A DNA stretch of 64,000 nucleotides from positions 248,001 to 312,000 of the forward strand of contig NZ_BBMC01000004.1 of the NCBI RefSeq assembly GCF_000971255.1, written 5' to 3'. Numbering within the stretch: position 1 is the stretch's first letter; the number at the start of each line of letters is the position of its first letter. The position numbers were made by a program, and so were the translations under genes. Below, piece by piece: positions 10,957 through 63,450 of the stretch. Source of the DNA: Demequina rhizosphaerae (lineage in GTDB: Bacteria; Actinomycetota; Actinomycetes; Actinomycetales; Demequinaceae). Under the pieces are notes generated by a model. That model was not told the origin of the DNA and did not search any database. It saw only the letters and a program-made list of their open reading frames with translations.

Positions 10957-11310
10957 CTACGGGGCGACGACGGTCCCGTCGTCGGTCTCGATCAGCACCG
11001 TGTCGCCGGAGCCCGGCGCCGCGTCCCACGAGCCCATGATGCTGAGGAAGAGGTAGAGGAACATGCCCGCGAAGGCGAGCCCGAACACGATCCGGGCGGT
11101 GGCGAGCACCGCCCCGACCACGCGGATCGCCGAGGCGACCGGGACGTCGCCCGCCGCGCCCGCGCCGCGGTGACGCAGGAAGGCGAAGGGCTGCGCCACG
11201 CCCGCGGCGAGCGCCGCATCGTCCACCGCCTGCTGGTGGTGCAGGCGCTCCATCTGCTCGTGGTGGAGCCGCGCCTCCGCCGCCATGCGGTCGTTGTAGC
11301 TGTCGTCCAT
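10957..11310 (-). CDS. Small membrane protein of unknown function
   Basis: 117 residues from ATG 11310. The first half is polar and rich in His, Met and Gln (RLHHEQMERLHHQQ), probably a short helical or coiled segment; then one or two membrane helices follow (ASAIRVVGAVLATARIVFGLAFAGMFLYLF), and a short acidic tail ends in TDDGTVVAP. A longer version from GTG 11334 is possible, but GGGGAC lies 4-5 bases before ATG 11310. No family recognised. It stands alone between the SDR gene and the divergent cysteine desulfurase. Confidence 0.55.
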   Translation of the reverse strand: MDDSYNDRMAAEARLHHEQMERLHHQQAVDDAALAAGVAQPFAFLRHRGAGAAGDVPVASAIRVVGAVLATARIVFGLAFAGMFLYLFLSIMGSWDAAPGSGDTVLIETDDGTVVAP

Positions 11311-11389
11311 CCCGTCCCCTTCGCCGTGGGGCACACGCTAGCGGCGCGGGGGCCCGGTGGGAAGGAGGACCGATTCCTAGACTGGCGGC

Positions 11390-12550
11390 GTGACCTACCT
11401 CGACCACGCGGCGACCACGCCCCTGCGTGCCAGCGCGCGGGAGGCGTGGCTCGCCGCGGCGGAGGAGGTGGGCAACCCGTCGTCGCTGCACGCCGCCGGC
11501 AGGCGCGCCCGCGCGATCGTCGAGGACGCGCGCGAGCGCATCGCGGCGGCGCTGGGCGCGGACGCCCCCGAGGTGATCCTCACGTCCGGCGGCACCGAGG
11601 CCGACAACCTCGCGATCAAGGGCCTCCACTGGGGCCGCCTCGCGCAGGAACCGTCCCGCCGGGACGTCGTCGTGTCCGCTGTCGAGCACCACGCGGTGCT
11701 CGATCCGGCACGGTGGCTCGCGGAGCGCGGCGACGCGGACCTGGTCGAGCTGCCGGTCGACCCCACGGGCCGCGTCGAGGCCGCCGCGCTCGCGGCGACC
11801 GTCGGCCCGGCGACCTCCCTGGTCTCGGTCATGTGGGCGAACAACGAGGTCGGCGCCGTCCAGCCCGTCGCCGACGTGGTCGAGGCCGCTCGCGTGCACG
11901 GCGTCCCGGTCCACGCGGACGCGGTCCAGGCGGTGGCGTACCTCGACGTCCACCTCCACCGCTCGGGACTCGACGCGATGACCGTGTCCGCGCACAAGGT
12001 GGGCGGCCCGGTGGGCGTGGGCGCGCTGCTCGCGAGACGCGGCCTCCCGTTGGTGCCGCTCGCGCACGGCGGCGGTCAGCAGCGGTCGGTCCGCTCCGGG
12101 ACGCTCGACGCGCCCGGCGCGGCGGCCTTCGCGGCGGCCCTGGACGAGGCGGTGGCCGAGCGGGCCGCCGAGTCCGCCCGCCTCGAGCGGCTGCGCGCGC
12201 GGCTCGCCGAGGCGCTGCGGGCGCACGTGCCCGAGGCGACCCTGTCCGGGCCCGCCGATTCCGCGCATCGTCTCCCCGGCATCGTCCACCTCGTCGTGCC
12301 CGGGGCGCGCGCCGAGTCCGTGCTCTTCCTCCTCGACGCGGCCGGCATCGCCGCGAGCTCCGGCTCGGCGTGCACGGCCGGGGTGGTGCAGTCGAGCCAC
12401 GTCGCGATGGCGATGGGCTGGTCCGCGGACGATGCGGCGTGCACGGTGCGCCTCAGCCTCGGCCGCACCTCGACCGAGGAGGACGTCGCGGCCGTGGTCG
12501 CGGCGCTGCCGGACGCCGTCGCGCGGGCGCGGGCGGCGTCGGGGCGCTGA
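11390..12550 (+). CDS. Cysteine desulfurase, NifS/IscS type
   Basis: 386 residues from GTG 11390. It is a PLP fold-type I enzyme: YLDHAATTPL, the GNPSSLHAAGR motif, TSGGTEADNLAIKG, the PLP lysine in SAHKVGGPVG (about K203), and the catalytic cysteine in SGSACTAGV (about C328). It takes sulfur from L-cysteine to give alanine and an enzyme persulfide that feeds Fe-S cluster assembly and tRNA thiolation. The gene is monocistronic here; mnmA, a typical sulfur acceptor, is 14 kb downstream. TAGACT lies 6 bases before the start codon, suggesting a leaderless mRNA, although an AGGAGG occurs about 22 bases upstream. Confidence 0.94.
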   Translation: MTYLDHAATTPLRASAREAWLAAAEEVGNPSSLHAAGRRARAIVEDARERIAAALGADAPEVILTSGGTEADNLAIKGLHWGRLAQEPSRRDVVVSAVEHHAVLDPARWLAERGDADLVELPVDPTGRVEAAALAATVGPATSLVSVMWANNEVGAVQPVADVVEAARVHGVPVHADAVQAVAYLDVHLHRSGLDAMTVSAHKVGGPVGVGALLARRGLPLVPLAHGGGQQRSVRSGTLDAPGAAAFAAALDEAVAERAAESARLERLRARLAEALRAHVPEATLSGPADSAHRLPGIVHLVVPGARAESVLFLLDAAGIAASSGSACTAGVVQSSHVAMAMGWSADDAACTVRLSLGRTSTEEDVAAVVAALPDAVARARAASGR

Positions 12551-36137: not shown

Positions 36138-37226
36138 GTGGGCGACTACCAGGGCACACTCCAGCCCGGCGCGCGCGTGGACGATGCGGTGTACCTCCCG
36201 GCCGAGCCCGGCGCCGTGCGCTGGGGGCGACTCCCCAAGCGCGGCGACGCGCCCGTCCTCACGGTCGACCCCGGCACGGCGCTCACCGTCGACACGGTGA
36301 GCCACGAGGGGCTCCTGCCGGACCAGGGCTCGGACCCCGCCGCGTTCTTCGACGGCCACGGCGTGGCCCGCGAGGACGTGCTCGAGGACGCGATCGCCAT
36401 CGCGGCCGCCGGCGCGCGCGGTCCCGAGGACGGCCCCCACGTCGTCACCGGGCCCGTCGAGGTGCGCGGCGCACGGCCCGGCGACCTCCTCGCGATCACG
36501 CTGCTCGACGCCACGCCGCGCGTCGACTACGGCGTCATCTCGAACCGTCACGGCCGCGGCGCCCTCCCCGGGGAGATGCCCGCCGGCCCCGCCGACGTCT
36601 CCGTCTTCACCCCCATCTCGCCCGACGAGCACGGCGAGTGGCGCGGGCGCCTGCCGCTCACCGAGGGCGGCGAGCGCGCGGTGTCGTTCCCGCTCGCGCC
36701 CTTCCTCGGCATCATGGGCGTCGCCACCGACACCGCGGAGGCCGCCCACTCGGTGCCGCCCGGCCCGCACGGCGGCAACATCGACATCCGCCACCTCACC
36801 GCCGGCGCGACGCTCCACATCCCGGTCCAGGTCCCCGGCGCGCTCGCCTACGTGGGCGACCCGCACTTCGCGCAGGGCAACGGCGAGGTCGCGCTCACCG
36901 CCCTCGAGGCCTCGCTCCGGGTGCGCATCCGGCTCGACGTGCTCGACGCGAGCGAGGCGGCGCGGGAGTTCGGCGACCTCGCGACCCCGCTCGCGGCGGA
37001 CGCGACGCACCTCATGCCCACCGGCCTCGACGCGGACCTCGACGAGGCGATGCGCGCATGCGTGCGGCAGGCGATCGCGCTGCTCGGGGCGCGCTACGGG
37101 ATGGCGCCGCACCTCGCGTACGCGTACCTGTCGGCCGCCACGGACTTCGAGATCTCCCAGGTCGTCGACCTGGTCACGGGCGTCCACGCCCGCATCCGTC
37201 GCGCCGACTTCGAGGGGGTCAGGTGA
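36138..37226 (+). CDS. Acetamidase/formamidase family protein
   Basis: 362 residues from GTG 36138. Family features: VDTVSHEGL near residue 55, DVLEDAIAIAAAG, GPHVVTGPVEVRGARPGDLLAITLLD, FLGIMGVA, PPGPHGGNIDIRHLTAGATLHIPVQVPGAL and GDPHFAQGNGEVALTALE. These enzymes release ammonia from short amides such as formamide and acetamide. It opens an operon with a fused amidase, pucG, an M20 amidohydrolase and a TetR gene, so its natural substrate may be an amide from ureide breakdown such as oxamate (inference). Its TGA overlaps the next GTG. Confidence 0.88.
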   Translation: MGDYQGTLQPGARVDDAVYLPAEPGAVRWGRLPKRGDAPVLTVDPGTALTVDTVSHEGLLPDQGSDPAAFFDGHGVAREDVLEDAIAIAAAGARGPEDGPHVVTGPVEVRGARPGDLLAITLLDATPRVDYGVISNRHGRGALPGEMPAGPADVSVFTPISPDEHGEWRGRLPLTEGGERAVSFPLAPFLGIMGVATDTAEAAHSVPPGPHGGNIDIRHLTAGATLHIPVQVPGALAYVGDPHFAQGNGEVALTALEASLRVRIRLDVLDASEAAREFGDLATPLAADATHLMPTGLDADLDEAMRACVRQAIALLGARYGMAPHLAYAYLSAATDFEISQVVDLVTGVHARIRRADFEGVR

Positions 37227-38803
37227 GGGTTCGCATCGAGGGGGGCGCGCCCGCGCCCGAGGGCCTGATCGACGCCGTGCTCGCGTACGAGGCGGCGCTC
37301 GCGGCCGACGACCTGGACGCGCTCGCCGACGCGTTCGAGCGCGGCGCGGACGCCGTGCGTGGCGACCGCGGCGGGCTCCTGGTCGGGCACGCCCGGATCA
37401 CCGGCTTCCGTGCCCGCCGCGGCGGCGCCGGCGCGCGCGAGGTCGCCGAGCTGCGGGTCCACCTCGCGGGGGACGATGCGGCACACGTCACCACCGTCAA
37501 CGTCCCGTCGGGCGGGGGTCGCGGCCTCGTCACGCAGCTGTGGCGGCGCGCCGACGACGGCGCATGGCGCATCGCTGCCGCGCACGTCACCGCGCCCGCG
37601 CCCGCCTTCGACACCCGCGTGTGGCGCGCCGTCGGGGCTCCGCTGGTCGCCGGCGCGGGCGACGGCCCGCTCGCCGGGGAGACCGTCGCGGTCAAGGACC
37701 TCTTCGCGGTCGCCGGCCACCGCATCGGCGTCGGGGTGCGCGCGTACCTCGCCGAGGCCCCCGTCGAGGACGAGAGCGCGCCCGCCGTCCAGGCGCTTCT
37801 CGACGCCGGCGCGGACGTGGCCGGGATCGCGCAGACCGACCAGTTCGCGTACTCGATCGCGGGCCTCAACCCCGACTACGGCACCCCGCCCAACCCCGCC
37901 GTCCCCGGCGCGATCCCGGGCGGCTCGAGCTCGGGCCCGGCCGCCGCGGTCGCGCTCGGCCAGGCGAGCATCGGCCTCGGCACCGACACCGCCGGCTCCA
38001 TCCGCGTCCCGGCCTCCTACATGGGCCTGTGGGGGCTGCGCCCCACGCACGGCGCGGTGAGCCTCGAGCGCGTGGCGCCGCTCGCGCCCCGCTACGACAC
38101 GGCCGGCTGGATCACCCGCGACGGGGAGACGATGCGCCGGGTCGCCGCGGTCGGGCTCGCGGGCGTCGACGCGGTCCCCGTCTCGGGCGACCTCCTTGCC
38201 GCGCCGTCCGCCATGATGTCCTGCGACGCCGGGGTGCGCGACGCGTTCGACGCGGCGCTGGCCGCGCTCGGCGCTGCGGGGACGCGCGTCGCGCCGGTCG
38301 ACCTGCCGCCGCTCGACGCGCTGCTCACCGCGTTCCGGGTGACGCAGCAGGCCGAGGCGTGGCGCGCCGACGGCGCGTGGGTCGAGGCCCACCCCGGCGC
38401 GCTCGCGCCGGACATCCAGGAGCGCTTCGACCTCGCCCGCGACGTCACGCCCGACCAGGAGGAGCACGCGCTCGCGGACGCGGGGCTGCTCGCCGCCCGG
38501 CTCGACCTCGAGCTCGGCGACGGGATCCTGCTCGTCCCGGCCGCCGCATCGTCCGCGCCGCGGCTCGACGCGAGCGAGGCCGAGCTCGAGTCGCGCCGCC
38601 GCGCCACCCTCTCCATCACCGCGATCGCCGGCCTCACCGGACGCCCGGCGCTGTCGGTGCCGCTCCTCGACACCCCCGACGGGCCCGTGGGCCTGTGCCT
38701 CGTCGGGCCCCGCGGCTCGGACCTCGCGCTCATCGACGCGGGGCTCGCGATCGAGGCCGTGCTGCGCAATCCCGGCGAAACATCGCTCGGGCAGACTGTG
38801 TAA
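37223..38803 (+). CDS. AtzH/HpxZ-like domain fused to an amidase-signature enzyme (HpxY/AtzE-like)
   Basis: 526 residues from GTG 37223. Residues 1 to about 130 are a SnoaL-fold domain of the DUF3225/AtzH type (LIDAVLAYEAALAADDLDALADAF, RARRGGAGAREVAELRVHL, TQLWRRADDGAWRIAAAHVT). The rest is an amidase-signature domain with the Ser-cisSer-Lys triad: VAVKDLF (Lys), GGSSSGPAAAVA (cis-Ser) and GTDTAGSIRVPA (nucleophile). In Klebsiella hpx clusters separate HpxZ and HpxY proteins of these two families go with purine catabolism; here they are one chain beside pucG. It may hydrolyse oxalurate or a related acylurea (inference). No AtzG/HpxX-like small subunit is seen. Confidence 0.86.
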   Translation: MRVRIEGGAPAPEGLIDAVLAYEAALAADDLDALADAFERGADAVRGDRGGLLVGHARITGFRARRGGAGAREVAELRVHLAGDDAAHVTTVNVPSGGGRGLVTQLWRRADDGAWRIAAAHVTAPAPAFDTRVWRAVGAPLVAGAGDGPLAGETVAVKDLFAVAGHRIGVGVRAYLAEAPVEDESAPAVQALLDAGADVAGIAQTDQFAYSIAGLNPDYGTPPNPAVPGAIPGGSSSGPAAAVALGQASIGLGTDTAGSIRVPASYMGLWGLRPTHGAVSLERVAPLAPRYDTAGWITRDGETMRRVAAVGLAGVDAVPVSGDLLAAPSAMMSCDAGVRDAFDAALAALGAAGTRVAPVDLPPLDALLTAFRVTQQAEAWRADGAWVEAHPGALAPDIQERFDLARDVTPDQEEHALADAGLLAARLDLELGDGILLVPAAASSAPRLDASEAELESRRRATLSITAIAGLTGRPALSVPLLDTPDGPVGLCLVGPRGSDLALIDAGLAIEAVLRNPGETSLGQTV

Positions 38804-38831: not shown

Positions 38832-40058
38832 ATGTCCCTGCCAGGCCCGATCGACCCGCCCGCGCGCCTGCTCATGGGGCCCGGCCCCATCACGGCGCAC
38901 CCGCGCGTGCTGCAGGCGATGTCGGCGCAGCTGGTGGGGCAGTACGACCCCTTCATGACCGGGGCGATGGGCGAGGTCCAGGACCTGTACCGCGGGGTCT
39001 TCGCGACCGCGAACACGCACACGCTGCTCGTCGACTCGACCGCGCGCGGCGCGATCGAGGCCGCGCTGGTGTCGCTGCTCGAGCCCGGCGACCGGGTGCT
39101 CGTGCCGGTGATGGGGCGCTTCGGCCACCTGCTCGTCGAGATCGCGGAGCGGTGCGGCGCCGAGGTGCACACCGTGGACGCGCCGTGGGGCGAGGTCGTG
39201 CCGCTCGAGGCGATCGCCGCGGCGATGGAGCGCGCGCGGCCCAAGGTGCTGGCGATGGTCCACGGCGACACCTCGACCACGATGCGCCAGCCGTTCGACG
39301 GCCTGCGCGAGCTGTGCGACCGCTACGACTGCCTGCTGTACGCGGACGTCACCGCGACCCTCGGCGGCAACCCGTTCCCCACCGACGCGTGGGGCGTGGA
39401 CGCCGCGACCGCGGGGCTGCAGAAGTGCCTCGGCGGGCCGTCGGGGTCGGCACCGGCCACGTTCTCGCCGCGCGCGGTCGAGGTGATCGAGGCGCGGCGC
39501 AGCATCGAGGCCGGGATCCGCGAGCCCGGCGACCCGACCGTGGCCCACCCGATCCGCTCGAACTACCTCGATCTCGCGATGATCTTCGACTACTGGTCGC
39601 CCCGCCGCCTCAACCACCACACCGAGGCCACCACGATGCTCTACGGCGCGCGCGAGTGCGCCCGGATCATCCTCGAGGAGGGCCTCGACGCGTACCAGGC
39701 GCGGCACGACCTGCACGGCCGGGCGATGCTCGCCGGCGTCGAGGGACTGGGGCTCGCCGTCTACGGCGACCGCGCGCACCGCATGGCGAACATCGTCGCC
39801 GTCGAGATCCCCGACGGAGTCGACGGCGAGGCGGTGCGCGGGTCGTTGCTGCGCGACTTCGGCATCGAGATCGGCACGTCCTTCGGGCCGCTCGCGGGGC
39901 GCGTGTGGCGCATCGGCACGATGGGCTGGAACGCCCGCACCGATGCGGTGCTCGCCACGCTCGCGGCCCTCGAGGCCGTGCTCCGGCGCCAGGGCGTGCC
40001 CGTGCCGCCGGGCGGGGGAGTGGACGCCGCCTACGACGTGTACGGGGCCGCCGCATGA
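38832..40058 (+). CDS. pucG: (S)-ureidoglycine-glyoxylate aminotransferase (PucG-like)
   Basis: 408 residues. A PLP fold-type I class V aminotransferase: LLMGPGPITAHPRVLQAMSAQLVGQYDP, VHGDTSTTMRQP, YADVTATLGGNP and the PLP lysine in LQKCLGGPSGSAP; the C-terminus has FGIEIGTSFGPLAGRVWRIGTMGWNAR. The LGGPSG context and FDYWSPRRLNHHTEAT fit PucG better than serine-glyoxylate or alanine-glyoxylate enzymes. PucG converts ureidoglycine and glyoxylate into oxalurate and glycine. Clustered with an M20 amidohydrolase and an amidase fusion, which agrees with that role. Confidence 0.87.
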   Translation: MSLPGPIDPPARLLMGPGPITAHPRVLQAMSAQLVGQYDPFMTGAMGEVQDLYRGVFATANTHTLLVDSTARGAIEAALVSLLEPGDRVLVPVMGRFGHLLVEIAERCGAEVHTVDAPWGEVVPLEAIAAAMERARPKVLAMVHGDTSTTMRQPFDGLRELCDRYDCLLYADVTATLGGNPFPTDAWGVDAATAGLQKCLGGPSGSAPATFSPRAVEVIEARRSIEAGIREPGDPTVAHPIRSNYLDLAMIFDYWSPRRLNHHTEATTMLYGARECARIILEEGLDAYQARHDLHGRAMLAGVEGLGLAVYGDRAHRMANIVAVEIPDGVDGEAVRGSLLRDFGIEIGTSFGPLAGRVWRIGTMGWNARTDAVLATLAALEAVLRRQGVPVPPGGGVDAAYDVYGAAA

Positions 40059-41347
40059 GCCGCCGGTCGCGGGCGAAGGGCCCGTCCGAGGCCGCGCTCG
40101 CGGACGCGCGCGAGGCACTTCGGCGGTGCGACGTCCTCGCGGGCCTGTCGTCGATGGAGGGCGGCATCGAGCGCGTCTACCTGTCACCCGAGCACGCGCA
40201 GGCGAACGCCCGGGTGGCCGAATGGATCGAGGCCGCCGGCATGCGCGCGTGGCAGGACGAGGCGGGCAACGCGCGCGGCTCGTACCCGGCCGAGACCGCC
40301 GAGGCGCCGGTGCTGCTCCTCGGCTCCCACCTCGACACGGTGCCCGATGCGGGCCGCTACGACGGCGTCCTCGGCGTGATGATCGCGCTCGCGGTCGTCG
40401 CGCGCCTGAGCGAGCACGGCGTGCGCCTGCCGTTCGGCCTCGAGGTGCTGGGCTTCGCCGACGAGGAGGGGGTCCGCTTCGGGCGCACCCTGCTGGGCTC
40501 GTGCGCGGTCGCCGGCACGTTCGAGCACGAGTGGCTCGAGCTGGCCGACGCCGACGGCGTGACGATGCGCGAGGCGTTCGCCGCGTTCGGGCTCGACCCC
40601 GACCGGGTGGTCGAGGCCGCGCTCGACCCCGCGGGGGTGCTCGGCTACCTCGAGGCGCACATCGAGCAGGGCCCGCTGCTGCTCGACGCGGGCCGTCCGC
40701 TCGGCGTCGTGTCGGGGATCATGGGCGCCAAGCGCTTCGACCTCGCCATGGAGGGCCAGGCCGGCCACGCGGGCGGCGTGCCGATGCTGCACCGCCGCGA
40801 CGCGCTGCTCGGCGCCGCCGAGGCCGCGCTCGCGGTCGAGCAGGTCGCGCTCACCGAGGGCGTCGTGGGCACGGTCGGCGAGATGCGGGTCGAGCCGGGC
40901 GCCGCCAACGTGATCCCGGGGCGCGCGGAGTTCTCGCTCGACGTGCGCGCCGCCTCCGACGCGCAGCGCGACGGCGCGTGGGAGCGGATCCGCGCCCACG
41001 CGGTCGAGGCCGCGGGCCGGCGCCGTCTCCAGTTCTCCGAGACGCTGCGCCACGTGGCGCGCGCGACCTCGTCCGAGCGGCGGCTGAGCGAGGCGGTCGA
41101 GCACGGCGTCCGCGCGGTCACCGGCGAGGACGAGGCGATGGAGTTGCAGTCGAAGGCGGGCCACGACGCGATGGCGATCGCGTCGCTCGCCCCGTACGCG
41201 ATGCTCTTCGTGCGCAACGGCAACGGCGGGATCAGCCATCACCCCGACGAGATCGTCACGGTCGAGGACGTCGCCCTCGCGATCGACGCGTTCGAGGCCG
41301 CGGTCCTCTCTATCGCGCAGCGGCAGGGAGCGGCTACGGTGGCGTGA
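40055..41347 (+). CDS. M20 family amidohydrolase, probable allantoate amidohydrolase
   Basis: 430 residues. Metal and substrate motifs: LLGSHLDTVPDAGRYDGVLGV, GFADEEGVRFG, LEAHIEQGP, GQAGHAGGVPM, VRNGNGGISHHPDEIV. It belongs with allantoate amidohydrolases and carbamoyl-amino-acid hydrolases. The overlap with pucG (ATGA) favours allantoate as substrate, giving ureidoglycine for PucG, carbon dioxide and ammonia. A second M20 paralogue sits in the hut operon at 20050 and probably has a different substrate. The TetR gene follows with TGATG overlap. Confidence 0.87.
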   Translation: MSRRSRAKGPSEAALADAREALRRCDVLAGLSSMEGGIERVYLSPEHAQANARVAEWIEAAGMRAWQDEAGNARGSYPAETAEAPVLLLGSHLDTVPDAGRYDGVLGVMIALAVVARLSEHGVRLPFGLEVLGFADEEGVRFGRTLLGSCAVAGTFEHEWLELADADGVTMREAFAAFGLDPDRVVEAALDPAGVLGYLEAHIEQGPLLLDAGRPLGVVSGIMGAKRFDLAMEGQAGHAGGVPMLHRRDALLGAAEAALAVEQVALTEGVVGTVGEMRVEPGAANVIPGRAEFSLDVRAASDAQRDGAWERIRAHAVEAAGRRRLQFSETLRHVARATSSERRLSEAVEHGVRAVTGEDEAMELQSKAGHDAMAIASLAPYAMLFVRNGNGGISHHPDEIVTVEDVALAIDAFEAAVLSIAQRQGAATVA

Positions 41348-42027
41348 TGACCCAGCCCGCCACGTCTCGACGCCCGCGCGCCGAGCGGGGCGACTACCGG
41401 GCGAACCACATCCGCCTCATCGACGCGGCCTTCGCCGTGTTCGACGACACCGACATCGAGGCGCCGCTGTCCGCCGTCGCGCAGCGGGCCGGCGTGGGCG
41501 AGGCGACGCTGTACCGCCACTTCGCGGGCAAGGACGAGCTGGTGCTCGAGATGTACGCGATCGCGATGACGCGCGTCGAGCAGCGGGTGCTCGCCGCGCT
41601 CGCGGTGCCGGGTCAGGACGCGGCCGCCAAGCTCGACGCGTTCTTCGACGCGATGGTCGGCGCGCTCGCGCGCCACCGCTCCTACCCTCAGCTCGCCGTC
41701 CGCGGCGCGCGCATCCGTCCCGGCCGTTCGGGCGACCCGCGGGTCCGCGAGGCGCTCCGCGCGCTCGTCGCGGAGGGCAAGGCCGCGGGGCTGCTCGAGG
41801 AGGACGTCCTCGCGGCGGACCTCGTCACCCTCGCGCTGACGTCAGGCACGCTCGCGGCCGATGCGACGCCCGCGACCGAGTTCGGGTGGAAGCGGCACCT
41901 CGCGCTGGGCAGGCGGGGTCTCGCGCCCGCCGACGCGGTCGACCGCGACCGGGCGCTCGCGGCGGTCGCCGTCCCGGCGTGGCTGTTCGAGGAGCCGGAC
42001 GACCCGGACGAGCCCGCGCCGGAGTGA
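41347..42027 (+). CDS. TetR-family regulator of the ureide operon
   Basis: 226 residues. Helix-turn-helix at about residues 20-68 (LIDAAFAVFDDTDIEAPLSAVAQRAGVGEATLYRHFAGKDEL); helical ligand domain after it and an acidic Pro-rich tail (FEEPDDPDEPAPE). Being the last gene of a five-gene operon for ureide breakdown, it may sense a purine-derived intermediate and act on the palindrome at 36083. Similar in domain plan to the TetR protein at 31978 but clearly distinct in sequence. Confidence 0.88.
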   Translation: MTQPATSRRPRAERGDYRANHIRLIDAAFAVFDDTDIEAPLSAVAQRAGVGEATLYRHFAGKDELVLEMYAIAMTRVEQRVLAALAVPGQDAAAKLDAFFDAMVGALARHRSYPQLAVRGARIRPGRSGDPRVREALRALVAEGKAAGLLEEDVLAADLVTLALTSGTLAADATPATEFGWKRHLALGRRGLAPADAVDRDRALAAVAVPAWLFEEPDDPDEPAPE

Positions 42028-44091: not shown

Positions 44092-44568
44092 ATGATCGAA
44101 CCCCAGCGCGAGGACCTTCTCGCGTGCCTCAACGTGTCCCGCTGGGCCGATGCGCTCGCGGCCCGCGCGTACCCGACGATGCTCGAGCTGGAGCGTGCGG
44201 CGGTGTCCGCCGGCACGCCGCTCACGCCGGAGGAGATCGAGGAGGCGCTGGCGGCGCACCCGCGCATCGGCGAGCGTCGCGAGGGCGACGGCGCGGAGGC
44301 GCGCTTCTCCCGTGCCGAGCAGGCGTCGTCCGCCTCGCCCGACGAGGCGCTCGCGGCCCGGCTCGCGTCCCTCAACGCCGCGTACGAGGAGCGCTTCGGG
44401 CGGGTGTTCCTCATCCGCGCCGCGGGGCGCTCGCGCGAGGAGATCGTGGGCGAGATCGAGCGTAGGCTCGAGAACGACGACGTCGCCGAGCTCGCCGAGG
44501 TGGCGGACCAGCTGCGCGGCATCGCGCTGCTGCGGCTGCGCGCGACGTACGGCGAGGAGGCCGCATGA
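44092..44568 (+). CDS. uraD: 2-oxo-4-hydroxy-4-carboxy-5-ureidoimidazoline (OHCU) decarboxylase
   Basis: 158 residues. UraD motifs: LNVSRWADALAARAYP, AAHPRIGE with the catalytic His, the SxxEQ segment (FSRAEQASS) and GRVFLIRAAGRSREEIVGEIERRL. It decarboxylates OHCU to (S)-allantoin, the third step after uricase. AGGGAGG lies 5 bases before the ATG. Its TGA overlaps the uraH ATG (ATGA). Confidence 0.93.
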   Translation: MIEPQREDLLACLNVSRWADALAARAYPTMLELERAAVSAGTPLTPEEIEEALAAHPRIGERREGDGAEARFSRAEQASSASPDEALAARLASLNAAYEERFGRVFLIRAAGRSREEIVGEIERRLENDDVAELAEVADQLRGIALLRLRATYGEEAA

Positions 44569-44885
44569 GCCACGTCACCACCCACGTGCTCGACTCGGTG
44601 CACGGGCGGCCGGCCGCCGGCATCCACGTGCGGCTGCTCCACGGCGACGCGGAGATCGCGAAGGGCGTCACGGACGCGGACGGACGCATCTCCGCGCTCG
44701 GGCCCGACCGCCTCCACGAGGGCACCTACCAGCTGATCTTCGCCACGGGGGAGTGGTTCGCCGACCACGGGGTCGCGACGTTCTACCCGGAGGTGCGCAT
44801 CGCGTTCGGCGTCGACGGCGACCCGCACTACCACGTGCCGCTGCTGCTCAGCCCGTTCGGCTACTCGACCTACCGGGGTAGTTGA
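44565..44885 (+). CDS. uraH: 5-Hydroxyisourate hydrolase (transthyretin-like)
   Basis: 106 residues, full length for the family. Conserved start VTTHVLDSVHGRPAAGIHV, the middle TDADGRI, the active-site HYHVPLLLSPFGYSTYRGS with the C-terminal YRGS hallmark. It hydrolyses 5-hydroxyisourate, the product of uricase, to OHCU, the substrate of UraD encoded just upstream. Cytoplasmic tetramer in known homologues. Confidence 0.96.
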   Translation: MSHVTTHVLDSVHGRPAAGIHVRLLHGDAEIAKGVTDADGRISALGPDRLHEGTYQLIFATGEWFADHGVATFYPEVRIAFGVDGDPHYHVPLLLSPFGYSTYRGS

Positions 44886-54466: not shown

Positions 54467-55369
54467 TCAGACCAGCCCGGAGTACTGCTGCCACGCGGGC
54501 CCGGCGTCCGGCGCATCGTCGCGCGTCACGGAGGCCTGGATGAGGCCGTACGGCCGGTCGTCGGCGTGGAAGACCTCGTTGTCGTTGGCGATGCCGAAGC
54601 GCGCGAGGTCGTACGCGAAGTGGTGCTTGTTGGGCGCGGACAGGCGCACCTCGACGAGCTCGGGCACCGCCTCGAGTGCGGCCTTGCCCATCTCGTAGAG
54701 CGTCTGCTGGAGCGCGAGCGAGTGGAAGCCGGCGAAGGTCTCGACCAGCGCGGCCTTGATCTCCGCGTAGCTCTCGTCGAAGTCGAAGGTCGCGGCGTCG
54801 ACGTCGCCGAAGCGCCACTTGGCGACGAGCGACGTCGCCATGATGCGGTCCGAGGTGGGCTCGAGCACCGTGTACTCGTCCTCGAGGAAGCCGTGGAACT
54901 CCGAGCCGGACGACTTGAGCACCACGAGGTCCTTGAGGCCGCCCGTGATCCACGTCGCGCCGTCCTCGACGGTCACGGCGACGGTGCGGACCTCCTGGCC
55001 GGAGCGCACCCAGCTGAAGTCGTGCTCGGCACCGCCGACGGAGACGCGCTCCCACGCGAACTCCTCGAGCTCGACGCGCGCCTGGTCCACCGGCGCGACG
55101 TCCGCGACGAAGTGCGTGGCGAGGGCGAGCGCGTAGCGCTCGAGCGAGGCGAGCCCGACGGTCTTGGCGAACGCGTACGACGTCTGCTTCTGGGTGTCCG
55201 TGGGGAGCACGGCGCCCTGGTCGCCCGTGAGGTGCGCCTCCTCGAAGGCGCCGCGCAGGCACGTCGAGACGTTGACGTCGCGGATCTCGTGGCGCGGGCT
55301 GTCCCGCACGATGCGCACGATGCGGTTCTCCGCCTTGCCGTACTGGTGGTCCCCGAGGATGATCGCCAT
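54467..55369 (-). CDS. Urate oxidase (uricase)
   Basis: 300 residues. Uricase motifs: ILGDHQYGKAENRIVRIVRD with the catalytic Lys, VLPTDTQKQTSYAFAK with the catalytic Thr, HFVADVAPVDQARVELEEFAWERV, LVVLKSSGSEFHGFLEDEYTVL and the His/Gln region LSAPNKHHFAYDLARFG, EVFHADDRPYGLIQASV. Cofactor-free oxidation of urate by oxygen gives 5-hydroxyisourate and hydrogen peroxide. The chain is complete and near the usual 300 residues. A 109-base gap to allantoinase carries the shared ACATCAACATTTCG motif, so it probably has its own promoter. Confidence 0.96.
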   Translation of the reverse strand: MAIILGDHQYGKAENRIVRIVRDSPRHEIRDVNVSTCLRGAFEEAHLTGDQGAVLPTDTQKQTSYAFAKTVGLASLERYALALATHFVADVAPVDQARVELEEFAWERVSVGGAEHDFSWVRSGQEVRTVAVTVEDGATWITGGLKDLVVLKSSGSEFHGFLEDEYTVLEPTSDRIMATSLVAKWRFGDVDAATFDFDESYAEIKAALVETFAGFHSLALQQTLYEMGKAALEAVPELVEVRLSAPNKHHFAYDLARFGIANDNEVFHADDRPYGLIQASVTRDDAPDAGPAWQQYSGLV

Positions 55370-55478: not shown

Positions 55479-56795
55479 TCAGGGCCGCTCGATGAGCTCG
55501 CCCTCGCTCGTCTCGGAGCCCGCGATCCACACGCGGCGCACCCGGCCGGCGAGCGCGCGACCGTCGAACGCGGTCACCTTGTTGCGGTGCTCGAGCGCGT
55601 CCGCGTGCACCTCCCACGGCACGTCCGGCGCGAACGCGATGAGGTCCGCGTCGCGGCCCGCCTCGATCGCGCCCTTGGTGGCGAGCCCCGCCCACGCGGC
55701 GGGGATCGCCGAGGTCCACTCCGAGACCGCCGCGAGGCCGTAGCCGCGCAGCCGCGCCCCGGTCCACACGGCCGGCAGCGCGACCTGGAGGCCCGCGATC
55801 CCGCCCCACGCGACCGAGAAGTCGCCCGCGCCCGCGAGCTTGAGGTCCGCGGTCGCGGGGGAGTGGTCGGACGCGACGAAGTCGATGACGCCGTCGGCGA
55901 GCGCCTGCCATAACGCCTCGCGGTTCGCCTCGGAGCGGATGGGCGGGCAGCACTTGTACTGGGTCGCGCCGTCGTCGATGTGCTCCGCGTCGAACGTGAG
56001 GTAGTGCGGGCAGGTCTCGGCCGTGAGAGGCAGCCCCTCGGCCTTGGCCTCGGCGACAAGCGGAAGAGCCGAGGCCGCCGACAGGTGCAGGATGTGCGCC
56101 CGCACCCCGGTCGCGCGCACCCCGTCGATCACCGCCGCGATCGCGCTGGTCTCGGCCTCCTCGGGCCGCGAGCCGACGAACGTGTCGTACCCGCGCCCGA
56201 CCCCGTCCTCGTGCGCGGCGAGCACCTCGGGGTCCTCCGCGTGCACGATGAGCAGCCCGCCGAAGCCCGCGATCTCCTCCATCGCGGCGCGCAGCAGGGC
56301 GCGGTCGAGGTAGCCGAACTCGTCGACGCCCGACGGCGCGAGGAAGCACTTGAAGCCGAACACGCCCGCGTCCCACAGCGCGCGCAGCGACCCGAGGTTC
56401 TCCGGCACCGCGCCGCCCCAGAAGCCGACCGTGACGTGCGACTTGCCCGCGGCGGTCGCGCGCTTGACCTCGAGAGCGTCGGGCGTGGTCGTCGGCGGGA
56501 TCGAGTTGAGGGGCATGTCGATGAGCGTGGTGACGCCGCCGGCGCGGGCGGCCCGCGTGGCGGAGTCGAAGCCCTCCCACTCGGTGCGGCCCGGCTCGTT
56601 GACGTGGACGTGGGTGTCGACGCCGCCCGGCATGAGCACCTCGTCCGGGCCGAGCGCGACCTCGGCGGCGGCGGACATCGGCGCGTCGAGCGCGCCCACG
56701 GCGACGATGCGGCCGGCATCGATCGCGACGGCTGCCGGCTCCTCGCCGGTGGGCAGGATGGCGCGCTCGGCGCGGATGACGAGGTCGTGGGTCAT
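55479..56795 (-). CDS. allB: Allantoinase
   Basis: 438 residues. Dihydroorotase/allantoinase amidohydrolase: PGGVDTHVHVNEPGRTEWEGF with the zinc His-x-His and the VNEPGR motif diagnostic of allantoinase, GVTTLIDMPLNSIPPTT, GFKCFLAPSGVDEFG with the bridging lysine region, LIVHAEDP, HILHLSAA, AETCPHYLTF and VASDHSPA. It opens the hydantoin ring of (S)-allantoin to give allantoate. Oriented like uricase and divergent from xdhC. Confidence 0.96.
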   Translation of the reverse strand: MTHDLVIRAERAILPTGEEPAAVAIDAGRIVAVGALDAPMSAAAEVALGPDEVLMPGGVDTHVHVNEPGRTEWEGFDSATRAARAGGVTTLIDMPLNSIPPTTTPDALEVKRATAAGKSHVTVGFWGGAVPENLGSLRALWDAGVFGFKCFLAPSGVDEFGYLDRALLRAAMEEIAGFGGLLIVHAEDPEVLAAHEDGVGRGYDTFVGSRPEEAETSAIAAVIDGVRATGVRAHILHLSAASALPLVAEAKAEGLPLTAETCPHYLTFDAEHIDDGATQYKCCPPIRSEANREALWQALADGVIDFVASDHSPATADLKLAGAGDFSVAWGGIAGLQVALPAVWTGARLRGYGLAAVSEWTSAIPAAWAGLATKGAIEAGRDADLIAFAPDVPWEVHADALEHRNKVTAFDGRALAGRVRRVWIAGSETSEGELIERP

Positions 56796-56830: not shown

Positions 56831-57725
56831 GTGTTCGAGATCGCGCGCGAGGCGCTGGGGGTGCTGCACGAGGGCGGCGCGCTCGGCGTCGTCGTGGTGA
56901 CCGGCGTCCACGGCTCCACGCCGCGCGCCCCCGGCTCCACCATCGCAGTGTGCGCCGACGGGCGCGCGATCGGCGCGATCTCCGGCGGCTGCCTCGAGTC
57001 GGAGGCCTACGAGCTCGCGCTCGCGCGCCACGCGGACCCGGCGCCGGTGACCGAGACGCTCGGCGGCGAGCCGGACCTCTACCGCCCGGGTCTCGCGTGC
57101 GGCGGCGCGGTCGACGTGATCGCCTTCCGCGTGGGACCCGGCGACCACGACGTCGTGGCAGCGCTCGAGGCCTCCCTCGACGACGGCGAGGTGACCCTGG
57201 CCCTTCCGGGCGGCCACCGCATCGTCCGCCCGCGCGCCCCGCGCCTGGTGATCGTGGGCGCCGTCGACTTCTCGCCGGCGCTCGCCGCGGCCGGACGTGC
57301 GCTCGGCTACCGCGTGCTGGTCGTCGATCCGCGGCCGGTCTTCGCGACGCCCGAGCGGCTGCCCGCGGCGCACGAGGTCCACGTCGCGTGGCCCGACGCC
57401 TTCCTCCGCGGCCTCGACATCGAGGACGGCACCGTGATCTGCGTGCTCACCCACGACGACCGCGTCGACGTGCCCGCGCTCGAGGTCGCGCTCGCCTCGC
57501 CCGCCGGCTACGTCGGCGCGATGGGCTCGCGCGTCACGCACGAGCGCCGGGTCGAACGGCTGCGCGAGGCCGGTGTGGGGGACGATGCGCTGGGCCGGCT
57601 CCGCTCGCCGATCGGCCTGGACCTGGGCGGGTCGAGCCCGGCGGAGACCGCGGTGGCGATCCTCGCCGAGGTGATCGCGTCCGACACGGGCGCGAGCGGG
57701 CGGCCGCTGCGCGAGACGGGCGGCG

Positions 57726-57751
<26 letters not shown>
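56831..57751 (+). CDS. XdhC-type molybdenum cofactor insertion/sulfuration factor
   Basis: 306 residues from GTG 56831. XdhC family: [45 protein letters not shown] (with the conserved SGGC cysteine) and a C-terminal Rossmann domain ([54 protein letters not shown]). It binds the molybdenum cofactor, promotes its sulfuration and delivers it to xanthine dehydrogenase, encoded convergently; the two genes overlap by 26 bases at their ends. CAGACT 7 bases before the GTG suggests leaderless translation. Confidence 0.9.
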
Positions 57752-61359: not shown

Positions 61360-61403
61360 CCCTGAATTTACGAGGGCGAAACACAAGGGCGCATGTTCAT
61401 GAA

Positions 61404-61414
61404 ATCTACATTCC
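61404..61414. promoter_or_regulatory. Weak third copy of the purine-catabolism motif
   Basis: ATCTACATTCC, 10 of 11 bases identical to the core of the pucG copy. It is part of an imperfect palindrome GAAATCTACATTCC in the divergent xdh/transporter promoter. Confidence 0.35.
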
Positions 61415-61518
61415 ATAACGTCGTGCCGACGTGCCGGAGTCATGTCCGGGCGCCGCGGGAGAGACCCCACCACGATGCTCCCTCGGCTGACCTTGCGTCC
61501 AACCACGAGGGAGAACTC

Positions 61519-62610
61519 ATGCGTTTCATCAACGGCAAGGCGGGGCGGCTCTCGGCCGCCGCTGCCGGCGTGGCTGTCGCCGCGCTCGCGCTCGCGGCGT
61601 GCTCGTCCGGCGAGGCCGACACCGGCTCGTCCGCCTCGGCCGACGCCGAGGACGCGATGGAGGCGCCCGCGTACGGCGACTTCACCGTCCAGCTGTCCTG
61701 GATCAAGAACGAGGAGTTCTCCGGCGAGTTCTTCGCGGACTCGATGGGCTACTACACCGAGGCCGGCTTCGACGCGGTCGAGCTGGTGCCCGGACCGTCG
61801 ACCGGCGCCGCCGAGCTGCTCTCCGGCACCGCCGACGTCGCGCTGTCCGACGCCGTCTCGATCGGCTCGGCCGTCGCCGCCGAGGAGGCGCCGCTGAAGA
61901 TCATCGGCACGACGTACCAGAAGAACCCGTTCACGGTCCTGTCGCTGGCGGACGGCGGCAACATCATGACCGCCGAGGACATGGTCGGCAAGAAGATCGG
62001 CGTCCAGGACTCCAACACCGCGCTCTTCATGGCGCTGCTCGCCGCGAACGGCCTCACCGAGGACGACGTCGAGATCGTCCCGGTCCAGTACGACCCCGCG
62101 CCGCTCACCAACGGCGAGGTCGACGGCTTCATCGCGTACCTCACCAACGAGTCGATCACCGTCGCGGCCGCCGGCTACGACACCGTCAACCTGCCCTTCG
62201 CGGACAACGGCCTGCCGTTCGTCGCTGAGACCATCACGGTCACCGACCAGTCGATCGCGGAGAACCGCGACGCGCTCAAGGCGTTCCTGGTCGCGGAGAT
62301 CAAGGGCTGGACCGACGCGGTCAACGACCCGGAGGAGGGCGCCCGCCTCGCGTACGAGGAGTACGGCGCCGACCTCGAGCTCAACCCGGAGAACTCGATC
62401 GCGGGCGCGATCGCGCAGGCCGAGGACCTCGTGGTCTCGGACGAGACCGTCGCGAACGGCCTCTTCACCATCTCCGAGGCGCTCCAGGCCTCCACCCTCG
62501 AGTCGCTCGCCGGCGCGGGCATCGAGCTCGAGGCCGCGGACCTCTTCGACCTCAGCCTCCTGGCCGAGGTCTACGAGGAGAACCCCGACCTCGTCGCCTA
62601 CGCGGGCTGA
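61519..62610 (+). CDS. ABC transporter substrate-binding lipoprotein, NMT1/THI5-like
   Basis: 363 residues. Lipoprotein signal MRFINGKAGRLSAAAAGVAV...LALAACSS, then an acidic Ser/Ala linker and the NMT1/THI5 fold: TVQLSWIKNEEFSGEFFADSMGYYTEAGFDAVELV, GTADVALSDAVSIGSAVA, KKIGVQDSNTALFMALL, YLTNESITVAAAGYDT. Members of this family bind pyrimidine, riboflavin, nitrate, sulfonate or related compounds. Divergent from the xanthine dehydrogenase operon, so a purine or purine product such as urate or allantoin is the favoured substrate (inference). GAGGGAGAA ribosome site before the ATG. Confidence 0.87.
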   Translation: MRFINGKAGRLSAAAAGVAVAALALAACSSGEADTGSSASADAEDAMEAPAYGDFTVQLSWIKNEEFSGEFFADSMGYYTEAGFDAVELVPGPSTGAAELLSGTADVALSDAVSIGSAVAAEEAPLKIIGTTYQKNPFTVLSLADGGNIMTAEDMVGKKIGVQDSNTALFMALLAANGLTEDDVEIVPVQYDPAPLTNGEVDGFIAYLTNESITVAAAGYDTVNLPFADNGLPFVAETITVTDQSIAENRDALKAFLVAEIKGWTDAVNDPEEGARLAYEEYGADLELNPENSIAGAIAQAEDLVVSDETVANGLFTISEALQASTLESLAGAGIELEAADLFDLSLLAEVYEENPDLVAYAG

Positions 62611-62625
62611 TCTGCGGGAGCACCA

Positions 62626-63450
62626 GTGACCGACGTCACCGAGACCGGTGCCCGGGGCGAGACCGCCCCGGGCACCGGCCTGCAGATCTCCGGGCTCACC
62701 AAGGTCTTCTCCTCCGGGAAGAAGACCGTCACCGCGCTCCAGGACGCGAACCTCCACACGGACCGCGGGTCCTTCCTGGCGCTGCTGGGCCCGTCCGGCT
62801 GCGGCAAGTCGACGATCCTGCGCATCCTCGCGGGCCTCGAGCAGCCGACGAGCGGCTCGACGCGCGTCGACGGCCGCTCGCCCAAGGACTTGCGCGCGTA
62901 CAACGAGCTGGGCATCGCGTTCCAGGACTCGGCGCTGCTGCCGTGGCGCTCCGTGTACAACAACATCAAGCTGCCGTTCGAGGTCTCCGGCAAGCCGGTC
63001 GACCACGACTACATCGAGGAGCTCATCGAGCTCGTCGGCCTCAAGGGCTTCGAGAAGGCCAAGCCCGCGCAGCTCTCGGGCGGCATGCGCCAGCGCGTGT
63101 CGATCGCCCGCGCGCTCGTGCTCAAGCCGTCGGTGCTGCTCCTCGACGAGCCGTTCGGTGCGCTCGACGACATGACGCGCCAGCGCCTCAACCTCGAGCT
63201 CATGCGCATCCTCGCCGCGAAGCCGGCGACCACCCTGCTGGTGACCCACGGCATCTCGGAGGCGATCTTCCTCGCCGACCAGGTCGCCGTGATGAGCCCG
63301 CGCCCGGGCCGGGTCAAGGAGGTCATGCAGATCGACCTGCCGCGCCCGCGCACCCCCGACATCCAGCGCAGCCCCGAGTTCCACGCCTACGTCGACCAGG
63401 CCTCCGAGCTGCTCTTCGGCGTCGGCGGCGCGGCCACCGAGGACCACTGA
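62626..63450 (+). CDS. ABC transporter ATP-binding protein, SsuB/TauB/ThiZ-like
   Basis: 274 residues from GTG 62626. Walker [10 protein letters not shown]-loop [18 protein letters not shown] (the LLPW motif of the nitrate/sulfonate/taurine group), signature LSGGMRQRV, Walker [16 protein letters not shown], switch His in [10 protein letters not shown]. It energises the importer whose binding protein precedes it by 15 bases and whose permease overlaps it (TGATG). Confidence 0.94.

Follow-up and report, generated by a model that had tools for sequence, protein, structure and literature searches.

An AtzH-amidase fusion encoded beside pucG in Demequina rhizosphaerae as a candidate oxalurate-consuming enzyme

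The fusion gene and its operon

The window analysed here is a 64,000-nucleotide stretch of the Demequina rhizosphaerae genome (contig NZ_BBMC01000004.1, positions 248,001 to 312,000), and all coordinates below refer to it. At 37223-38803 on the plus strand, a single open frame with a GTG start encodes a protein of 526 amino acids, in which an N-terminal domain of the AtzH-like (DUF3225) type precedes an amidase with the complete Ser-cisSer-Lys set. The AtzH-like domain spans residues 17-123 (37271..37591, plus strand; PF11533, 54.3 bits, cut-off 27), and the amidase-signature domain extends from about residue 144 to 516 (37652..38770, plus strand; PF01425, 179 bits, with its best stretch at residues 144-307). 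A phmmer comparison with the PDB gives the same division, with AtzH itself (6bjt, E 5e-5) covering the first part and amidases covering the second. The two domains in one chain had been described in an earlier note on this DNA, and both are borne out by these scores and by the residues Lys158, Ser235 and Ser259, which are unchanged in 15 of 15 aligned fusions. We assign catalytic roles to these three residues by their spacing, that of the two serines matching malonamidase E2. Homologues of up to 91% identity occur in other genomes with pucG directly downstream, which argues that the fusion is not a product of chance. We regard the minus-strand frames across the gene as artefacts of high GC content, the homology being carried by the plus-strand frame.

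An AlphaFold2 model of the fusion has a mean pLDDT of 89, with low values at residues 43-69, within the AtzH half. The predicted amidase half matches 2dc0 among solved structures (Z 49.8, root-mean-square deviation 2.3 over 385 residues). Numerous other amidase-signature enzymes, including AtzE, allophanate hydrolase and malonamidase, also match it within a few Z units, and the comparison does not tell substrates apart. The first half is compared with AtzH, which, according to PMC6219798, probably removes carbon dioxide from the 1,3-dicarboxyurea that AtzE forms, and needs Tyr22 and Arg46. The window's fusion has counterparts of AtzH Tyr22, Arg46, Arg63, Arg66, Arg73 and Gln108, each found in 33-35 of 35 aligned fusions (Tyr22 in 33, Arg46 in 34; G009 and G018 were excluded from this alignment as short). 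By analogy with AtzH, this half may decarboxylate the product of the amidase half.

The fusion is flanked by genes of the same orientation. Upstream lies a gene for an FmdA_AmdA-family amide hydrolase of 362 amino acids (36138..37226, plus strand; PF03069, 105 bits, cut-off 27), which we propose as a putative oxamate amidohydrolase. A formamidase assignment by family was rejected, the corresponding model NF045496 giving 76 bits against a cut-off of 500. The protein is likewise not HpxW, since it belongs to PF03069 and not to the gamma-glutamyltransferase family; it could therefore be at most a functional analogue of HpxW. Downstream, pucG (38832..40058, plus strand) encodes a predicted (S)-ureidoglycine-glyoxylate aminotransferase. 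Its best PDB matches are 3nnk (539.8 bits, E 4.2e-161), the Klebsiella ureidoglycine-glyoxylate aminotransferase, and 3isl (422.9 bits, E 1.3e-125), which is PucG, followed by a match of 312.6 bits; the nearest structures are thus both of this type. The protein shares 60.5% identity with HpxJ, an aminotransferase encoded in the hpx locus of K. pneumoniae. From this close homology, we infer that it makes oxalurate from ureidoglycine and glyoxylate. Next come an M20-family allantoate amidohydrolase, the proposed source of ureidoglycine (40055..41347, plus strand; NF006775, 509.1 bits, cut-off 479), and a TetR-family regulator at the operon end (41347..42027, plus strand; PF00440, 45.8 bits). The FmdA-like, PucG and M20 neighbours are as the earlier note had described them, and its overlapping operon needs one correction: FmdA and the fusion overlap by 4 bp, as do pucG and the M20 gene, whereas the fusion and pucG are separated by 28 bp.

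Elsewhere in the window lie genes for OHCU decarboxylase (44092..44568, plus strand; TIGR03180, 142.9 bits, cut-off 139.4), hydroxyisourate hydrolase (44565..44885, plus strand; TIGR02962, 122.6 bits, cut-off 87.45), urate oxidase (54467..55369, minus strand; TIGR03383, 339.6 bits, cut-off 168.4), allantoinase (55479..56795, minus strand; TIGR03178, 529.7 bits, cut-off 357.85) and the xanthine dehydrogenase maturation protein XdhC (56831..57751, plus strand; PF13478 and PF02625). Because these genes share the window with the fusion, we place it in the pathway from urate to allantoate. At 61393-63450, a gene for an NMT1/THI5-like binding protein and one that by sequence encodes an ABC (ATP-binding cassette) ATPase adjoin genes resembling those of xanthine dehydrogenase. 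Clusters of the NMT1 type are met repeatedly around pucG in the sampled neighbourhoods and perhaps represent a purine or ureide importer.

Relationships of the amidase half

The amidase half is not an orthologue of HpxY, a point that qualifies the reading in the earlier note. Its scores fall far under the AtzE/HpxY models (TIGR02715, 134.7 against 425.75 bits; PRK09201, 137.2 against 461), and a tree of 68 amidase domains splits AtzE, HpxY_Kp and AtzE_Pbk from all PRK08310-type rows with a support of 100/98. Membership of the allophanate hydrolase family was also rejected (TIGR02713, 128.5 bits, cut-off 511). The top NCBIfam model is PRK08310 (NF006169), with 364.7 bits a near miss of its cut-off of 391, and the tree places the domain among PRK08310-type proteins. 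Unfused relatives at the loci L098, L113, L114 and L125 exceed this cut-off, and that at L123 is slightly under it (380.1). Scores and tree together indicate that the fusion is not HpxY joined to HpxZ, but that a different amidase met AtzH. Judged by the coordinates at the locus, no GatC-like partner (AtzG/HpxX) lies beside the fusion, as the 4-bp overlap upstream and the 28 bp to pucG downstream leave no room for one.

An unfused form of the same pair, a PRK08310-type amidase followed by a separate hpxZ gene, is found on plasmids of Azospirillum, Roseomonas and Pseudoroseomonas, as well as in Roseomonas rubea (L128) and Falsiroseomonas stagni (L129). On the Azospirillum plasmid (L098, 3465-11478), xanthine-dehydrogenase-family genes, the amidase, hpxZ and a DUF1116 (AllG-like) protein are clustered. 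A Paraburkholderia plasmid (L101, 3340-12098) carries rutB, a PRK08310-type amidase, an AtzE-family amidase and hpxZ in one run, adjoined on the opposite strand by a BMP-type transporter; the two amidase types can thus share one cluster.

Association with pucG and the FmdA-family gene

The distribution of the three genes was followed across 396 genomes of the order, comprising 109 genera, with scoring limited to the best 3-5 candidates of each genome and matches accepted up to E 1e-45 for the fusion, 1e-100 for PucG and 1e-60 for the FmdA-like protein. A fusion homologue is found in 80 genomes, PucG in 64 and the FmdA-like protein in 88, with all three present in 62; pairwise, 63 genomes share fusion and PucG, 63 PucG and FmdA, and 75 fusion and FmdA. 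An FmdA-like gene thus accompanies PucG in 63/64 and the fusion in 75/80 genomes, and the sole PucG genome lacking a fusion match (G498) is an assembly of about 700 contigs. The genome-level association has a p value of 5e-56, a figure that ignores kinship; the fusion occurs in 14/14 genera with PucG against 21/109 overall (p 7e-13, kinship between genera ignored). Most of the homologues (71 of 80) match in one piece from query residue 18 or earlier. Partial matches begin at residue 57 or later in G018, G543, G712, G025, G680, G445, G459 and G625, and G009 matches in two pieces.

The association extends to gene order. Among the 63 genomes having both, the fusion lies within 300 bp of pucG in 41 and within 10 kb in 16 more, giving for the count that the earlier note had suggested a total of 57; in the remaining 6 it is farther away or on another contig. 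Counted by genera, 13 of the 14 that possess pucG have it no more than 10 kb from the fusion. The distance from fusion to FmdA in 75 genomes is at most 300 bp in 55 and at most 15 kb in 65, and the overlap is exactly 4 bp in 18 of 24 same-strand pairs with called genes. In G511, G525, G565 and G578, where the fusion is distant from pucG, FmdA is encoded on the strand opposite to pucG, 83-154 bp away from it, and likewise in G498. This arrangement indicates that the fusion and FmdA each hold their own link to pucG. Within Demequina, 24 of 34 genomes carry all three genes, 7 carry none and 3 the fusion only; of these last, G009 has it split between two frames, G018 is devoid of the AtzH half and G022 looks intact. 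Of the 40 neighbourhoods compared, whose clusters were named after the matches of one or two representatives or else by sequence, two were uninformative: L088 (G597), with no genes called, and L067 (G625), with no fusion called.

The link to pucG recurs outside the order. A search of the phylum returned 10 matches to the fusion, 6 of them outside the order, of which 3 have FmdA. In one of these (G250), PucG (71% identity) lies 3.3 kb from the fusion, with FmdA adjoining; in another, G068, a weaker PucG match (43%) is far from the amidase. A wider scan of genome contigs with a fusion alignment gave at least 80 loci, some with short flanks and many with distant relatives. Among the 80 loci listed, pucG lies in the fetched flank of four, namely those of Nesterenkonia aurantiaca (L105), Cohnella laeviribosi (L114), Paenibacillus alkalitolerans (L125) and an uncultured member of the Enterobacterales (L123). 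The last three amidases have no AtzH domain and form two tree lineages separate from the actinomycete fusions. In the two Paenibacillaceae, L114 and L125, the amidase adjoins pucG. In L125, the gene 3' of the amidase (11158-12018), which overlaps it by 4 bp, stands where FmdA or HpxW would stand; its best model is the HpaG C-terminal one (148.8 bits, cut-off 276.4), and its product is presumably fumarylacetoacetate-hydrolase-like.

In L123, a single metagenome-assembled genome, the gene for the amidase overlaps a second gene. In the PDB, the product of this second gene matches 5hft best (214 and 198 bits for two chains, next match 167), an entry listed as gamma-glutamyltranspeptidase that we take to be K. 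pneumoniae HpxW. It scores under the gamma-glutamyltransferase model cut-off (308.8 against 357.85). Further along are PucG (3nnk, E 8e-192) and an allantoate amidohydrolase. At this locus, the amidase occupies the place of Klebsiella HpxXYZ, beside an enzyme expected to take oxamate. Seen in this one genome, the arrangement is the strongest single pointer to oxamate as the product.

The known oxalurate consumers, by comparison, are scarce. AllG, the one component of the oxamate carbamoyltransferase AllFGH covered by the search, is found in 2/64 PucG genomes and was not found in the window's genome. AtzE/HpxY-type amidases above the cut-off occur in 0/64 PucG genomes, the window's among those without one, considering matches to E 1e-100; one sub-threshold match was seen in G551 (345 against 425.75 bits). 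Ureidoglycolate lyase was found in 2/64 PucG genomes and not in that of the window. As positive controls, the searches for AllG, AtzE/HpxY and ureidoglycolate lyase each matched 1 of 14 control genomes (E. coli, Caulobacter and E. coli, respectively). To our knowledge, PucG organisms without oxamate carbamoyltransferase and HpxXY have no described oxalurate consumer.

A possible oxalurate route and its alternatives

These gene partnerships lead us to consider it likely that the window's fusion consumes oxalurate in an actinomycete pathway for urate and allantoin. Allantoate amidohydrolase would yield (S)-ureidoglycine, which PucG, as its close homology predicts, would convert with glyoxylate to oxalurate and glycine. 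The amidase half may then attack oxalurate at the amide of its terminal ureido group, which would free ammonia and yield N-carboxyoxamate, and the AtzH half may speed the decarboxylation of the latter to oxamate, by analogy with the successive action of AtzE and AtzH on 1-carboxybiuret and 1,3-dicarboxyurea. The FmdA-like enzyme would finally hydrolyse oxamate to oxalate and ammonia, the task of HpxW in Klebsiella. The domain architecture, the residues and the gene partnerships are observed, whereas every reaction of the fusion and of the FmdA-like protein is inferred, and the two-step chemistry of the fusion, taken together with the FmdA assignment, is tentative, in our judgement falling a little short of probable. 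The HpxW-like partner in L123 and the presence of FmdA in 75/80 fusion genomes make most sense if oxamate is made.

Several observations weigh against this route. Within the AtzH half, the counterparts of Phe94 and Arg96 are not retained in the fusions, and that of Gln106 is kept in 24 of 35 and replaced by Val in the window. In G025 (G025:C1:1538363-1539691), the stretch bearing Arg46 is missing although FmdA, amidase and PucG are kept, and L105 gives no AtzH match at E 1e-4, with 77 bp between its FmdA and amidase matches. The AtzH half is therefore not always needed; such losses fit a decarboxylation that also runs unaided, yet they weaken the view that AtzH is essential. The partnerships, too, have exceptions. 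PucG is missing from 17/80 fusion genomes, 12 genomes hold an FmdA-like gene with neither fusion nor PucG, FmdA lies with the fusion but both are away from pucG in G032 and G560, and the intact-looking fusion of G022, within the window's own genus, occurs where PucG and FmdA are missing. In the wider scan, 76 of the 80 loci listed, mostly unfused amidases, have no pucG in the fetched flank. An isochorismatase-family cluster gene follows the fusion in 10 of the 17 PucG-free fusion genomes (G444, G472, G510, G524, G591, G599, G682, G526, G539 and G579), and creatininase and cupin recur in this context, also in Amycolatopsis acidicola (L103) and Roseomonas (L099). Finally, the glyoxylate supply for PucG is unexplained, a problem for any version of the pathway.

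In each of these ten isochorismatase-context genomes, FmdA lies no more than 15 kb from the fusion, and the two isochorismatase-family members tested resemble RutB and biuret hydrolase (BiuH), far under the cut-offs of those families. This second context implies that the module of FmdA and fusion is also used in one or more further pathways, in which oxalurate may or may not be an intermediate. With the 17 PucG-free genomes and the 76 of 80 loci listed, it follows that enzymes of the wider family may take substrates besides oxalurate. The earlier proposal of an oxalurate route without oxamate carbamoyltransferase thus draws support from the pucG linkage (57/63) and the rarity of AllG (2/64), and is qualified by these same PucG-free genomes and loci.

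Further observations concern lost AtzH halves and PucG-free loci. In L105 and G025, the urate-pathway genes remain alongside FmdA, amidase and PucG despite the lost or damaged AtzH half. At L059, L065, L068, L062-L064, L103 and L099, an isochorismatase-family hydrolase stands beside the fusion or the unfused pair, no PucG being seen, and these loci variably include a cupin, creatininase, an ABC transporter, a cytosine-deaminase-like enzyme and FmdA. On a Rhodococcus rhodochrous plasmid (L096, 877-11855), FmdA and the fusion, annotated merely as acetamidase/formamidase and amidase, lie downstream of genes for an ABC transporter of the peptide type and for a flavin-dependent oxidoreductase, in a stretch that has no annotated pucG. 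A cluster beside the fusion in G037 (c74) was considered as HpxW and dropped, as its sequence looks like that of a chemotaxis receptor.

Three other activities were weighed. The PucG-free contexts, in which fusions and unfused relatives are paired with RutB- and BiuH-like isochorismatase-family hydrolases, and the 76 of 80 loci listed without pucG would suit a general acylurea or allophanate-type hydrolase of ureide catabolism, which may take several ureido acids and for which pucG is one setting. The proximity to pucG in 13/14 PucG genera argues otherwise, no allophanate source is seen in the window's urate pathway, and the score against TIGR02713 lies far under its cut-off; we regard this activity as unlikely, though the least so of the three. 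Only marginally less probable in our view is a cut at the other amide bond of oxalurate, which would give oxalate and urea directly and leave the FmdA-like enzyme to act elsewhere. Amidase-signature enzymes cleave many kinds of amide, and an AtzH half that is dispensable in some lineages would fit, whereas the overlap of the L123 amidase with an HpxW-like gene and the FmdA-like gene in 75/80 fusion genomes, within 15 kb in 65, speak for a route through oxamate.

The fusion might instead work one branch earlier, as an amidohydrolase of ureidoglycolate (or ureidoglycine) and thereby a source of glyoxylate for PucG, deaminating the ureido group and decarboxylating the product with its AtzH half. 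The chemistry on the ureido group would be identical, and because ureidoglycolate lyase occurs in just 2/64 PucG genomes, the source of glyoxylate is indeed not apparent. Such an enzyme would, however, leave oxalurate with no known consumer in the 62/64 genomes where AllG was not found, and it explains neither the HpxW-like partner in L123 nor the likeness to HpxXYZ, whose genes lie near that of HpxJ; of the three, we hold it the least probable. Consumption of oxalurate by the fusion accordingly remains the reading that we favour.

If correct, this reading provides a candidate oxalurate enzyme and a candidate next enzyme, occurring together with PucG in 62/396 genomes of the order, and an assignable function for a protein group named only 'amidase', following the same pathway logic with different protein families. 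Among the matches listed in literature on oxalurate, Hpx, AtzH, PucG and oxamate, in the excerpts available, we recognised neither an AtzH-amidase fusion nor an FmdA-type oxamate hydrolase. A complete non-orthologous replacement of HpxWXYZ, with a one-chain AtzH-amidase carrying out both half-reactions and an FmdA-family protein as a second, unrelated class of oxamate amidohydrolase, is a real possibility to which we give not quite an even chance. In that case, actinomycetes would drain purine carbon as oxalate, and the PRK08310-type amidases beside pucG in Bacillota and Enterobacterales would form a widespread group of oxalurate hydrolases.

Among described systems, four come closest. In E. 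coli, oxalurate is consumed by the oxamic transcarbamylase AllFGH to give oxamate (PMC11326118); this transcarbamylase yields carbamoyl phosphate and belongs to other protein families than the fusion. Relative to the NCBIfam group PRK08310 (NF006169), the fusion adds an N-terminal AtzH domain and scores just under the cut-off. The cyanuric acid operon of Pseudomonas sp. ADP offers AtzE-AtzG, with an amidase that strips ammonia from a ureido compound, and AtzH, the probable decarboxylase of the compound so formed (PMC6219798). AtzH Tyr22 and Arg46 are conserved in the window, whereas the Atz proteins are separate, their amidase is of another clade and the context is cyanuric acid instead of purines. 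The Klebsiella hpx cluster (HpxJ, W, X, Y and Z), whose hpxY is called an oxalurate amidohydrolase in PMC12625717, likewise brings together in one purine cluster an aminotransferase of the PucG type, an amidase-signature enzyme, a member of the AtzH family and an enzyme that hydrolyses oxamate. In the window, by contrast, the amidase is of another clade and fused to AtzH, no GatC-like HpxX gene stands beside it, and an FmdA-family protein takes the place of HpxW. As a whole, these likenesses and differences suggest an Hpx-type oxalurate module that has been rebuilt from other protein families.

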